The position numbers were made by a program, and so were the translations under genes. A DNA stretch of 64,000 nucleotides. It comes from Halobacteriovorax marinus SJ. GTDB taxonomy: Bacteria > Bdellovibrionota > Bacteriovoracia > Bacteriovoracales > Bacteriovoracaceae. The number at the start of each line of letters is the position of its first letter. Position 1 is the first letter of the stretch. The notes under the pieces were generated by a model. The model was not told the DNA's origin. It did not search any database and saw only the letters and a list, made by a program, of their open reading frames with translations. Below, one piece after another: positions 58,487 through 64,000 of the stretch. The stretch covers positions 186,001 to 250,000 of the forward strand of contig NC_016620.1 of the NCBI RefSeq assembly GCF_000210915.2. Reading direction: 5' to 3'.

Positions 58487-59242
58487 ATGAAAGAAACGAA
58501 CCTCAAACATATTGCAATTATAATGGATGGCAATGGGCGCTGGGCCCAGAGTCGTTCGCATGAGCGCATTTGGGGTCATATTCGTGGTTCAAAGATTGTA
58601 TCTAATATAGTTGAAGAGGCAGATGACTTGGGAGCTAAGGCCCTAACTCTTTATGCTTTTTCAACTGAGAACTGGAGCCGACCTGTAGGAGAAGTGAAGG
58701 TTCTCTTTAAGCTGTTAAAGAAGTTTCTTTTGAAAGAGAGAAATAGAATATTAAAGAATAATATTCAATTTAAAGTAATGGGTGACATTACAAAGCTACC
58801 TGAAAAAACTCAATCACTTATAGCAGAGCTTGAGAATGACTCTAAAGATAATAAGGGTCTTAAGCTTACTTTTGCTTTTGGTTATGGTGGAAGAGATGAA
58901 ATAGTTCAGGCCGCTAATAAATTTATCAAAGAAAACCCTGGAAAAGAGTTAACGGAAGAGCTTCTCCAGTCCTATCTATTAATGCCTCACCTAGGAGATG
59001 TAGATCTTCTAATTAGAACAGGTGGGGATCAGAGAATTTCAAACTTCTTGTTATGGCAATCAGCTTATGCTGAGCTTTATTTTACGCAAACAAAGTGGCC
59101 AGACTTCACTAGAAAAGAATTTAAAGAAATATTTGAATTTGTTTCAAAGAGAGAGAGAAGATTTGGAAATGTATGCTCTTCCGATTTACAGACATCAAAA
59201 ATGATGGCCGTAGAAAACAAGGAATTAATTACTAACCTTTAA
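58487..59242 (+). CDS. uppS: undecaprenyl diphosphate synthase
   Basis: This 251-residue cis-prenyltransferase makes the C55 lipid carrier for peptidoglycan and O-antigen sugars. The catalytic-Asp motif IIMDGNGRWA, FSTENWSRP and LLIRTGGDQRISNFLLWQ are present. The GGD in place of the common SGE in that box is a known variant. It is located before cdsA, as in many bacteria. Confidence 0.97.
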   Translation: MKETNLKHIAIIMDGNGRWAQSRSHERIWGHIRGSKIVSNIVEEADDLGAKALTLYAFSTENWSRPVGEVKVLFKLLKKFLLKERNRILKNNIQFKVMGDITKLPEKTQSLIAELENDSKDNKGLKLTFAFGYGGRDEIVQAANKFIKENPGKELTEELLQSYLLMPHLGDVDLLIRTGGDQRISNFLLWQSAYAELYFTQTKWPDFTRKEFKEIFEFVSKRERRFGNVCSSDLQTSKMMAVENKELITNL

Positions 59243-60087: not shown

Positions 60088-61656
60088 ATGATCGAAAAAG
60101 TACTTATATTTATTTTATTCTTAGGCCCTTTAGTTTTCTTTCACGAGCTAGGACACTTTTTATTTGCCCGTCTTTTTGGGGTTAGAGTCCAAGTCTTTTC
60201 AATCGGATTTGGTCCTAAGATTTTGAAGTTTAAAAAAGGTGATACTGAGTACGCTATCTCTTTAATACCACTTGGTGGTTATGTGAAAATGTTTGGAGAT
60301 GATCCATTCAATGGAGATGCGATTCCAGTTGAAGAGAGAAAGTATAGTTTTACTCATAAGAGTAAATGGGCAAGATTCTGGATTGTTTTTGGTGGTCCAT
60401 TGGCCAACTTTATTATGGCCTATGTTATCTTCTTCTCTCTACTTTTAGGCGGAGAGAAAATGCCTGAACTTAGAATGGGTCTAATCCCTGAAGGTACTAA
60501 GTTCTCAACTCTTGGTATTAAAACAGGAGATGTTTTAAAGAAGGTGAATGGAGAAACTATTTCGTCTGCTGCAGATATGGCCTTAACAGATGGCGGAATT
60601 CAAACGCTAACAGTTGAGCGCTTTAACAAGTTAGAGACTGTAAATATTGGAATGACTGGAGAAGAGTTCTTTGAAGAGATGGCAAATTATCAACCATTTC
60701 TTAGAAGGCCAGTTATGTCTTCAGGAAGTGGAGAGATTTTCGCACTCTCACTTAACAAAGATAAAGTAGATTGGAGTGAATCCTTAGATGAAATTGCTGA
60801 GAATGCTCAAGATCAAAGTCTCTATATTTTCAAGCTACCTAAAGGTGTAGACTTAGGGCAAGCTGAAATTAAAGAAGAAACTCCGTTTGTAAGAGAAGTT
60901 AAGCTTGGTTCAAAGGGACTAGAGAGCTTCTTCACTACTATGAGAAATGAAGATCTATATCCGAAGGATATGTTTGTTAAAAGTATCTCAATGAATTCCC
61001 CTGCAGAGAAGGCCGGAATCCTTGGTGGAAATGTTATCCTTGGTTTAAATGGTGCTGCAATATTTAGCTTCGAAAATCTTCGCGCTACACTACAGAAAAC
61101 TGACTCTAAAGATGTGATGGTAAGTATTCTTGCCAATGGTGAGGTGAAAGAGTTAAGCCTTACTCCAGATGTTAAGCCTCAAGGAGATAAGAAAGTAAAA
61201 CTTATAGGTGTATATTCTGATGGAGTATTTCAAGGAATGCGATTCGTAGATACACCTTCAAAAGGACTTGTCGGATCATTTACAGGTGCCTTTGCAAGAA
61301 CTTGGGATTCTATTGTAAAAACAGTGGCCGGCTTTAAGAAGTTAATCGTAGGTGAAGTATCTTTAAAGTCGATTGGCGGACCATTAGCAATTGGAAAAGT
61401 TGCATCTGATTCATTTCAAACTAGTTTGTCTTACTTTTTTCAATTAATGGCCCTTATCTCAATTAATTTGGGTGTCATTAATCTCTTCCCAATTCCAGTC
61501 TTGGATGGTGGACATATTTTATTTTTAGGACTTGAGTTCTTAAATAGAGGTCCTGTTTCAAGAAGAAAAATGGAAATAGCACAACAATTTGGCCTATCGA
61601 TGCTTCTAATGCTAATGATAGGTGCGATTTTTAATGATGTTGTGAGATTTTTCTAA
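60088..61656 (+). CDS. rseP: site-2 intramembrane metalloprotease RseP
   Basis: This is a 522-residue zinc protease that cuts transmembrane substrates such as anti-sigma factors. The HELGH zinc site is at residues 19-23, and the late NLFPIPVLDGGHILF stretch holds the third zinc ligand. Two PDZ-like domains lie in the loop (about 135-170 and 300-360). It is longer than E. coli RseP (450) because of an insert of about 75 residues before the second PDZ. Its stop overlaps the tsaB ATG by one base. Confidence 0.94.
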   Translation: MIEKVLIFILFLGPLVFFHELGHFLFARLFGVRVQVFSIGFGPKILKFKKGDTEYAISLIPLGGYVKMFGDDPFNGDAIPVEERKYSFTHKSKWARFWIVFGGPLANFIMAYVIFFSLLLGGEKMPELRMGLIPEGTKFSTLGIKTGDVLKKVNGETISSAADMALTDGGIQTLTVERFNKLETVNIGMTGEEFFEEMANYQPFLRRPVMSSGSGEIFALSLNKDKVDWSESLDEIAENAQDQSLYIFKLPKGVDLGQAEIKEETPFVREVKLGSKGLESFFTTMRNEDLYPKDMFVKSISMNSPAEKAGILGGNVILGLNGAAIFSFENLRATLQKTDSKDVMVSILANGEVKELSLTPDVKPQGDKKVKLIGVYSDGVFQGMRFVDTPSKGLVGSFTGAFARTWDSIVKTVAGFKKLIVGEVSLKSIGGPLAIGKVASDSFQTSLSYFFQLMALISINLGVINLFPIPVLDGGHILFLGLEFLNRGPVSRRKMEIAQQFGLSMLLMLMIGAIFNDVVRFF

Positions 61657-62270
61657 TGGCCTATTTATTTATTGATACGTCTGACCACTTGGTTCTCGGT
61701 TTATTGGATGAGAATTATAGGTGGTTGGATTTTGTGGAAACTGAGGATAAGAAGAGCTCAGCTTCCATTCATTCCCATGTCTACAGCTTACTTGAAAAGA
61801 GAAATTTAAAAATTAAAGAAGTTCAAGGTCTCTTTCAAGTTGCAGGTCCTGGATCATATACGGGGATGCGAATCTCTGAAGGGATGGCCCAAGTTCTAGA
61901 GTGGCAAGACATTCCAATTTATTCATTTTACCATTTCTCAGTTCCATTTATCTTAGGCATTGAAAGAGGCGCTTGGGTATCTAAGGCATTTAAGGGTGAG
62001 ATTTTTCTCTATGAATGGAGGGGAGAGAAGGTAGAGAAGTCACTGCATAGTGAAAAAGACCTAAGTTCTCTTCAGGAGAAATTGTCACCGGAGCTAGGAG
62101 AGTTTTGGACTCACTTTGATGGTGTCATTGATCAAATCTCTCGCTCTAGTGCTCAATTGATTAAGGAGAAACCAGAGGAGGTTTTTTCTTATGTTGCTGA
62201 GAGTCAGTTAAGGGAGAAACCCTTTTATTACAGATCTTTAGAAAATGAGTTCCACGTAAGCAATAAATGA
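61656..62270 (+). CDS. tsaB: tRNA t6A threonylcarbamoyl complex protein TsaB
   Basis: This is a 204-residue ASKHA-fold protein, the non-catalytic partner of TsaD in making t6A37 in tRNAs. FIDTSD at the start and the GPGSYTGMRIS loop (about 68-78) are the family marks. Divergence in the second half is normal for TsaB. It lies in a lipid and cell-wall cluster; tsaD, tsaC and tsaE are not in this window. Confidence 0.85.
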   Translation: MAYLFIDTSDHLVLGLLDENYRWLDFVETEDKKSSASIHSHVYSLLEKRNLKIKEVQGLFQVAGPGSYTGMRISEGMAQVLEWQDIPIYSFYHFSVPFILGIERGAWVSKAFKGEIFLYEWRGEKVEKSLHSEKDLSSLQEKLSPELGEFWTHFDGVIDQISRSSAQLIKEKPEEVFSYVAESQLREKPFYYRSLENEFHVSNK

Positions 62271-62301: not shown

Positions 62302-62919
62302 ATGGGATTAACTTACCTTCCTAAATGGATATATTCTTGTATCACTTTTGTGGCATTGCTCTTAATGCTAATTATTGGCGTGTGGGGATTTCTATTTGCG
62401 GCCCTTGTCTACGGAATACTCTTTGCCATTTTTAGAAAGCAGAAAGAAGACTTTAGAAAAGATTCGAATGAGAATGTAATTGTCTCACCAGTTAATGGAA
62501 GAGTTTATAAGATTGAAAAAAATGTTGATCATGAATTCTTTGGCAAAGATATGACAAGTGTCCTCATTCAAGTTCCATTTTGGAAAGAGTTTGGACTTTT
62601 CTTTCCAGTAAAATCAGAGATACATGATGTTCAAGCAAGCTGTGATTCATGCTTAGATCACTTAGTGAAATTTAGACTAGTGAATGGAATGGATATCGGT
62701 CTTGCTGTTGGACAAAATATATTGCGCTTAGCTCCTCAAATAATGGTCTTACCAGGTGATAGAGGAAAGCAGAAAGTGAATTTTGGATTTCTTCCAATGG
62801 GTGGGGAAGTGAGAGTTTTCATCCCATCTGCATTGGAAGTATTAATTAATGAAAAAGATGAAGTAGTTGCTGGGCAAGGAATCCTTGCAGGTATTCCTAC
62901 TGATATTGAGGAAAAATAA
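62302..62919 (+). CDS. phosphatidylserine decarboxylase-like protein lacking the pyruvoyl serine
   Basis: This 205-residue protein has two N-terminal helices (about 8-44) and a decarboxylase-like core that starts VIVSPVNGRVYKIE and ends with the beta-strands VNFGFLPMGGEVRVFIP and VVAGQGIL. In real short-form Psd the self-cleaving serine sits in a GS pair (FGSRVDV-like). Here the place reads MGGEV, so no pyruvoyl group can form by the usual route. The upstream His region is also divergent. Directly downstream is pssA, where psd is often found. So it is either an inactive or regulatory relative, or an enzyme with another chemistry. I leave the gene symbol open. Confidence 0.75.
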   Translation: MGLTYLPKWIYSCITFVALLLMLIIGVWGFLFAALVYGILFAIFRKQKEDFRKDSNENVIVSPVNGRVYKIEKNVDHEFFGKDMTSVLIQVPFWKEFGLFFPVKSEIHDVQASCDSCLDHLVKFRLVNGMDIGLAVGQNILRLAPQIMVLPGDRGKQKVNFGFLPMGGEVRVFIPSALEVLINEKDEVVAGQGILAGIPTDIEEK

Positions 62920-62920
62920 T

Positions 62921-63679
62921 ATGATTGATCAGCCTAAAAGGTTAGCTTTCTTTCTACCTAATACATTTACAGCTTTAAATATGGCCTGCGGTTTTGCGTC
63001 TATAATAATGGCCTGGAAGGGACAATTTTATAATGCAAGTATGATTCTATTGCTGGGGGCGATTTTTGATTCTGTTGATGGGAGAGTTGCCAGAATGACG
63101 GGGACTCAGTCTCAATTTGGTGAGCAATTTGATTCTATTAGTGATGTTGTCTCTTTTGGAATGGCTCCTGCTTTCTTGGTTTATAATTGCTTCTTTAAAG
63201 ATTTAGGGCGACTTGGAATGGTTGTTTCTTTCTTATATCTACTATGTGGTGCTTTAAGACTTGCAAGGTTTAATGCCAATATTGATAAAGTTAGTAGTGA
63301 CTACTTTCAAGGTCTACCAATTCCAACTGCGGCTCTAGGTCTTGTGGGTTATGTTCTTTTAGCGATTGAATTTCATTTAATTAAAACGCTAACGCCATTT
63401 ACTATTTTCTATGTTGTTCTCTATTCTCTTTTGATGATTTCGAATATCCCTTTCTATTCTTTTAAGAATGCGACTTGGGTTAAGACTCATAAGAAGAGAG
63501 TGCTCGCAATTATCTTTTTATTGCTGGCCCTCATCTTCACTTACGAGCAGTTAATGATAGGTGTGATTACTGGAGCATATGTTCTAGGTGGATTAGTTTA
63601 TTTTATAACTCATAAAGGCGCTTTAGAAGATGTCTTTTCATGGAAGAGCGAAAATGATGAAATCAATGAAAGTAATTAA
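62921..63679 (+). CDS. pssA: CDP-diacylglycerol-serine O-phosphatidyltransferase
   Basis: This 252-residue membrane enzyme makes phosphatidylserine from CDP-diacylglycerol and serine. The CDP-alcohol phosphotransferase motif D-G-x2-A-R-x8-G-x3-D-x3-D is complete (DGRVAR..GEQFDSISD). The ATG at 62921 with GAGG before it is chosen; an in-frame upstream start lies within the psd-like gene. The next gene starts within its last codons. Confidence 0.95.
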   Translation: MIDQPKRLAFFLPNTFTALNMACGFASIIMAWKGQFYNASMILLLGAIFDSVDGRVARMTGTQSQFGEQFDSISDVVSFGMAPAFLVYNCFFKDLGRLGMVVSFLYLLCGALRLARFNANIDKVSSDYFQGLPIPTAALGLVGYVLLAIEFHLIKTLTPFTIFYVVLYSLLMISNIPFYSFKNATWVKTHKKRVLAIIFLLLALIFTYEQLMIGVITGAYVLGGLVYFITHKGALEDVFSWKSENDEINESN

Positions 63680-64000
63680 AGTAGCATTTACAATTTTACT
63701 CATGAGCGCAAGTTTTGCGCAGGACTTTGGTCAAAGAGTAGATGGTGATATTCCAAATGCAATGGATGAAGTCGAAGGTGGAAATAGTCCTTATATACAA
63801 GGCTCTGATGAGAGGCCTATGGATAAGGTTGAGAAAGGGAAGACTTCGGCGATGGTTCCGGGTGAAAGTGATTATGGAACTAAACAGTCTGAGGGGAAAG
63901 ACGCCACTCAATTTAATATTGGAGCACCATTTAGTGGAACAGAGTCCGATCAGTATATCACTTACACAAATAAAGATATTTTAAAAGGCCTCTCTAAAAA
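63657..64000 (+). CDS. secreted protein, 3' end cut by window edge
   Basis: At least 114 residues are visible. A signal peptide (KVAFTILLMSASFA) is followed by an acidic Gly/Asp/Ser-rich mature region with repeated small motifs (for example GDIPNAMDEVEGG). The frame begins inside the pssA 3' end: ATG codons at 63654, 63657 and 63666 are in frame, and GGAAGAG (63642-63648) best fits 63657. The frame is open to base 64000. No family recognised in the visible part. Confidence 0.7.
   Translation, partial: MKSMKVIKVAFTILLMSASFAQDFGQRVDGDIPNAMDEVEGGNSPYIQGSDERPMDKVEKGKTSAMVPGESDYGTKQSEGKDATQFNIGAPFSGTESDQYITYTNKDILKGLSK

Follow-up and report, generated by a model that had tools for sequence, protein, structure and literature searches.

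A conserved and apparently undescribed family of phosphatidylserine decarboxylase-like pseudoenzymes encoded beside pssA in Bacteriovoracaceae

The window, a 64,000-nucleotide stretch of the Halobacteriovorax marinus SJ genome, ends in an operon with the gene order frr, uppS, cdsA, rseP, tsaB, a psd-like gene and pssA, in which frr, uppS and cdsA are named from reading of the open reading frames (ORFs), and rseP, pssA and a weak tsaB from profile matches. The psd-like gene (62302..62919, + strand) opens with ATG and encodes a 205-residue protein, characterized here through the ORF list, Pfam/NCBIfam matches, alignments, profile-profile alignment and AlphaFold2. One base past its stop codon, which ends at 62919, begins pssA (62921..63679, + strand), encoding a CDP-diacylglycerol-serine O-phosphatidyltransferase (TIGR00473, 142.5 bits against a cut-off of 107) with an intact DGRVAR...G...D...D motif. 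Upstream lies a tsaB-like gene (61656..62270, + strand; weak PF00814 match), a neighbour found in the same order in relatives and taken as context rather than part of the function. An ORF past pssA (63630-63998; DFGQRVDGDIPNAMDEVEGG...) has a signal-peptide-like start and continues beyond the window edge. The C-terminal end of uppS, GNVCSSDLQ (window 59165-59190), resembles a read-through Illumina adapter; the exact adapter sequence was not found in the window or the genome, and this end is probably natural.

Two hydrophobic helices (residues 8-25 and 27-43) form the N-terminus of the 205-residue protein, followed by a beta-rich domain of the phosphatidylserine decarboxylase (Psd) type. Pfam PS_Dcarbxylase matches only the last ~47 residues, at 22.9 bits against a cut-off of 22 (a margin of 0.9 bits), and the NCBIfam short Psd model matches two stretches (E=8e-14) at 51 bits against a curated cut-off of 225. 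The protein shares with the short phosphatidylserine/archaetidylserine decarboxylases (NCBIfam PRK05305 models, TIGR00164) its length, the two N-terminal hydrophobic helices, SPxxG, the place before pssA and a full-length profile match; unlike them, it lacks the Ser, Asp, His, HVNR, NERN and ARR and falls far below every curated NCBIfam cut-off. Alignment of the family profile with that of genuine short Psd by hhalign spans 205 columns (probability 99.7, E=3e-25), and a search with the family profile recovers genuine short Psds with E-values from about 1e-14 to 1e-28. On this profile evidence, the ORF is a full-length homologue of short Psd and belongs to the Psd superfamily by descent, which upholds the Psd likeness noted in the preliminary description.

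The AlphaFold2 model, built with 63 relatives, reaches a mean pLDDT of 93.3 and comprises two helices at the N-terminus followed by a beta domain, the same element order as in the AlphaFold2 model of a genuine short Psd. Foldseek places EIIA (duplicated hybrid motif) first, and both EIIA and M23 peptidases rank above the Psd-family PsiD, which is among the matches at a moderate query-normalised TM of 0.46-0.50 and is also found with the genuine short Psd. Profile searches for structural relatives return weak hybrid-motif matches only for the pseudoenzyme and E. coli Psd at E=0.002 for the genuine short Psd; a phmmer search of the window protein against PDB sequences gave no match.

Genuine short Psds, defined as those above the NCBIfam cut-off, are present in 29 genomes from other families of the same phylum, and 19 loci readable by a motif script were compared column by column with 89 pseudoenzyme family members. 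RFGSR occurs in 19/19 of these loci, each followed directly by pssA, consistent with the earlier view that the gene sits where psd is expected. Gly167-Gly168 of MGGEV (codons 62800..62805, + strand) align with the self-cleaving GS of RFGSR, both in this comparison and in the profile-profile alignment. The pyruvoyl-Ser column holds Ser in 19/19 genuine proteins versus Gly in 87/89 family members, with Ala and Ser in one each. The lone Ser-bearing member (L071) reads FNS instead of GS and lacks all other catalytic motifs; by eye, the G111 protein apparently has FS at this position. The triad Asp (D90 or D142 in E. coli) is represented by Asn65 (codon 62494..62496, + strand), where SPADG has its conserved Asp, and by Lys95 in the window protein; the Asp column is Asp in 18/19 genuine proteins versus N49, S13, H10 and D4 of 89. 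At the catalytic His (H144 in E. coli, the H of HVNR), 19/19 genuine proteins have His versus 5/89 members, which otherwise carry M, Y, F, K or others, with Phe97 in the window protein. The R of HVNR (19/19) is mostly replaced (Y48, F21), and the N and E of NERN and the Q and R of QxAGxxARR (19/19) give way to mixtures. The structural residues P63, G66, P102, G162 and G167 are retained in 86-89/89 members. The column losses together with these retained residues therefore indicate that catalysis is gone while the frame of the fold is kept, a loss well supported at the level of sequence. The reading of GG in place of the self-cleaving Ser, made before alignment with short Psds, is thereby borne out, with Asp and His lost as well. 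The observation as a whole lies far beyond chance.

The pseudoenzyme is present in 120/129 genomes of the window's order (Bacteriovoracaceae), 109 by single-sequence search and 11 by profile search or position before pssA (G020, G026, G040, G041, G065, G066, G067, G072, G105, G110 and G111); among the latter, the frame is interrupted in G066 and the match is weak in G072. A single-protein scan of public genomes yielded a named relative, from Bacteriovoracaceae bacterium UBA3083, that is 80% identical. pssA is the next gene in 88/88 testable loci, with a median gap of 6.5 nt (80 within 20 bases, 20 overlapping). The dead Psd form is an order-wide family rather than a one-off. No fusion of the two proteins was seen; in G102, the sole candidate (open frame 476), a stop separates the two genes. 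Four genomes (G058, G059, G060 and G064) carry tsaB directly followed by pssA, the pseudoenzyme gene being absent and pssA kept; PssA can therefore manage without its neighbour and does not strictly need it, and the gene can be lost. Within the open-access literature, we found no description of a Psd pseudoenzyme or of Psd in Bdellovibrio, Bacteriovorax or Bacteriovoracaceae, and this conserved family of Psd pseudoenzymes is real and apparently undescribed.

A six-frame search (E<=0.001) of the source genome (3.44 Mb, 2 contigs, 100% complete), for which the window protein is too diverged to be listed, revealed one PF02666 match, a long Psd (C1:321416-321970, 163.7 bits, E=7e-48). It keeps D142, H144, H147 and G253-S254-T255 of E. 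coli Psd, as do 29/29 long Psds read from the order at D142/H144/H147/GST. The window protein, a distant relative of this E. coli-type enzyme within PF02666, has none of these residues. The preliminary description had raised the possibility that, if the cell held no other psd, phosphatidylethanolamine (PE) would be made by another route; the search for a second psd found the long Psd with its residues intact, and therefore no other PE route is needed. Across the order, 126/129 genomes have a PF02666 match and nearly all a long Psd. In G069 and G121 the search listed the pseudoenzyme as the match, and it gave no match for G025, G074 or G106; these five are drafts 72-92% complete, in which an absent long Psd may be a gap. 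A second PF02666 match is absent in 29/29 genomes with genuine short Psd, and G133 and G250, from another family, have a long Psd with an unrelated gene before pssA. Three states thus emerge: active short Psd only, active long with dead short Psd, and long without short Psd. As the pseudoenzyme passes the Pfam PS_Dcarbxylase cut-off, automatic annotation may call it a decarboxylase, and genome-based lipid-gene counts would then give two psd genes where one can work.

From these sequences, the pseudoenzyme probably serves as a regulator or as a binding partner; of the regulator, scaffold or new enzyme first suggested, the former two still form the best class of explanation. We give about even chances to a scheme in which catalysis passed to a long Psd, and the inactive Psd of the operon survived as a non-catalytic subunit that binds phosphatidylserine (PS) or regulates. 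An ancestral operon would have paired a short psd with pssA, and the present gene would derive from that psd; a long-type Psd coded elsewhere would have assumed decarboxylation in the order's ancestor, and the short Psd would have lost its self-cleaving Ser, Asp, His and substrate motifs while being retained as a folded, membrane-anchored protein co-produced with PssA. We infer a single loss of function in the order's ancestor, simultaneous with or later than acquisition of the long Psd. Replacement is favoured by other families, in which genuine short Psd lies directly before pssA without a long Psd (29/29). At present, the pseudoenzyme would bind PS or dock on PssA and tune or channel the PS to PE step, its presumed role being PS binding or regulation at that step. 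A subunit of this kind, binding PS or contacting PssA, is the best supported reading. A narrower and tentative version would make the dead Psd a lipid-sensing PssA subunit that reads membrane PS (or PS/PE) to set the level of PS synthesis; if true, it would be a control point of bacterial phospholipid balance built from a retired enzyme. The bacterial balance between PS synthesis and PS decarboxylation is poorly understood, and a dead Psd that stays tied to pssA across a whole order, the active step having shifted to a different gene, is a natural experiment on PS balance.

PanZ (PanM) is not known to be related to decarboxylases, unlike the pseudoenzyme. As the activator of PanD, it is likewise a separate protein acting on a pyruvoyl decarboxylase (PMC3496974). 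A further parallel leads to the main rival, which we regard as unlikely: the pseudoenzyme might pair with the long Psd and activate or restrain it allosterically, not acting on PssA. The precedent comes from AdoMetDC, another pyruvoyl decarboxylase, whose dead paralogue in trypanosomes, the prozyme, binds and activates the active partner (PMC5201418). Both systems retain a dead pyruvoyl-decarboxylase paralogue alongside an active one; partner binding is shown for the prozyme, whereas the active enzyme of the order belongs to a different Psd class and its binding by the pseudoenzyme is hypothetical. In E. coli, Psd forms a dimer of heterodimers (PMC7952604), and pseudoenzyme and long Psd co-occur nearly always. 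Such pairing is disfavoured by the little common sequence between the two Psd classes, by linkage of the pseudoenzyme gene to pssA rather than to long psd, and by genomes with long Psd and no pseudoenzyme.

A decaying remnant, held mainly through translational coupling to pssA, would account for the close or overlapping pssA start, the absence from some genera and the faster evolution relative to pssA, with non-synonymous change ~3x that of PssA (PssA dN about a third). We consider it improbable. Comparisons inside the genus yield dN values of 0.11-0.33 and dS values exceeding 1.1, for a dN/dS of roughly 0.08-0.25, ratios that are rough because dS is near saturation; these values indicate that the pseudoenzyme is under purifying selection, and its reading frames are intact across dozens of genera. 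The family also has a conserved signature of its own (GD[RK]G...PFGG; more fully GD[RK]G, six residues, G[YF]xP[FL]GG), seen in the window protein as GDRG (152-155) and GFLPMGG (162-168) besides SPVNG (62-66), and its fold is predicted at high confidence.

The new enzyme of the earlier suggestion, built on the Psd scaffold and using other residues (D153, R/K154, R45), is more improbable still. Among 63 diverse members, P63, G152 and D153 are invariant, R45 occurs in 97% and R or K at 154 in ~90%. D153 is, however, the sole invariant polar residue, some of the genuine short Psds (S146, S150) share the GD of this loop, so that D153 may be structural, and column conservation revealed no set of conserved Ser, Cys or His residues. 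That the protein is still a decarboxylase, its cofactor formed at another residue, is scarcely credible: Thr (52 of 89 members) or Ser (10 of 89) often follows GG, but the window protein has Glu there; the alignment places no conserved Ser elsewhere, a possibility the preliminary description had allowed for, the best candidate being S62 of the SPADG motif, conserved at 63%; and His and substrate motifs are lost, with all decarboxylation abolished in E. coli H144 mutants (PMC7952604).

In all 29 long Psds read from the order (L001 1231-2130, the source-genome copy near C1:321416, and 28 within L092-L121), Glu stands where E. coli Psd has D90, a natural variant relevant to the redundancy reported for E. 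coli Psd, in which D90 and D142 are interchangeable for maturation (PMC7952604). Additional PF02666 matches lie in long open frames (517-716 aa) of g21, g22 and g6 genomes: G058:C174 (L215), G059:C11:16936-17439 (L213), G060:C11:112490-113155 (L214) and G020:C234 (L216). These are possibly fusions or another Psd type, and the g21 and g22 genomes concerned are without a pssA-linked pseudoenzyme. A second PF02666 protein of ~280-340 aa accompanies the usual long Psd in G008, G010, G016, G029, G048, G050, G051, G052, G109 and G120.
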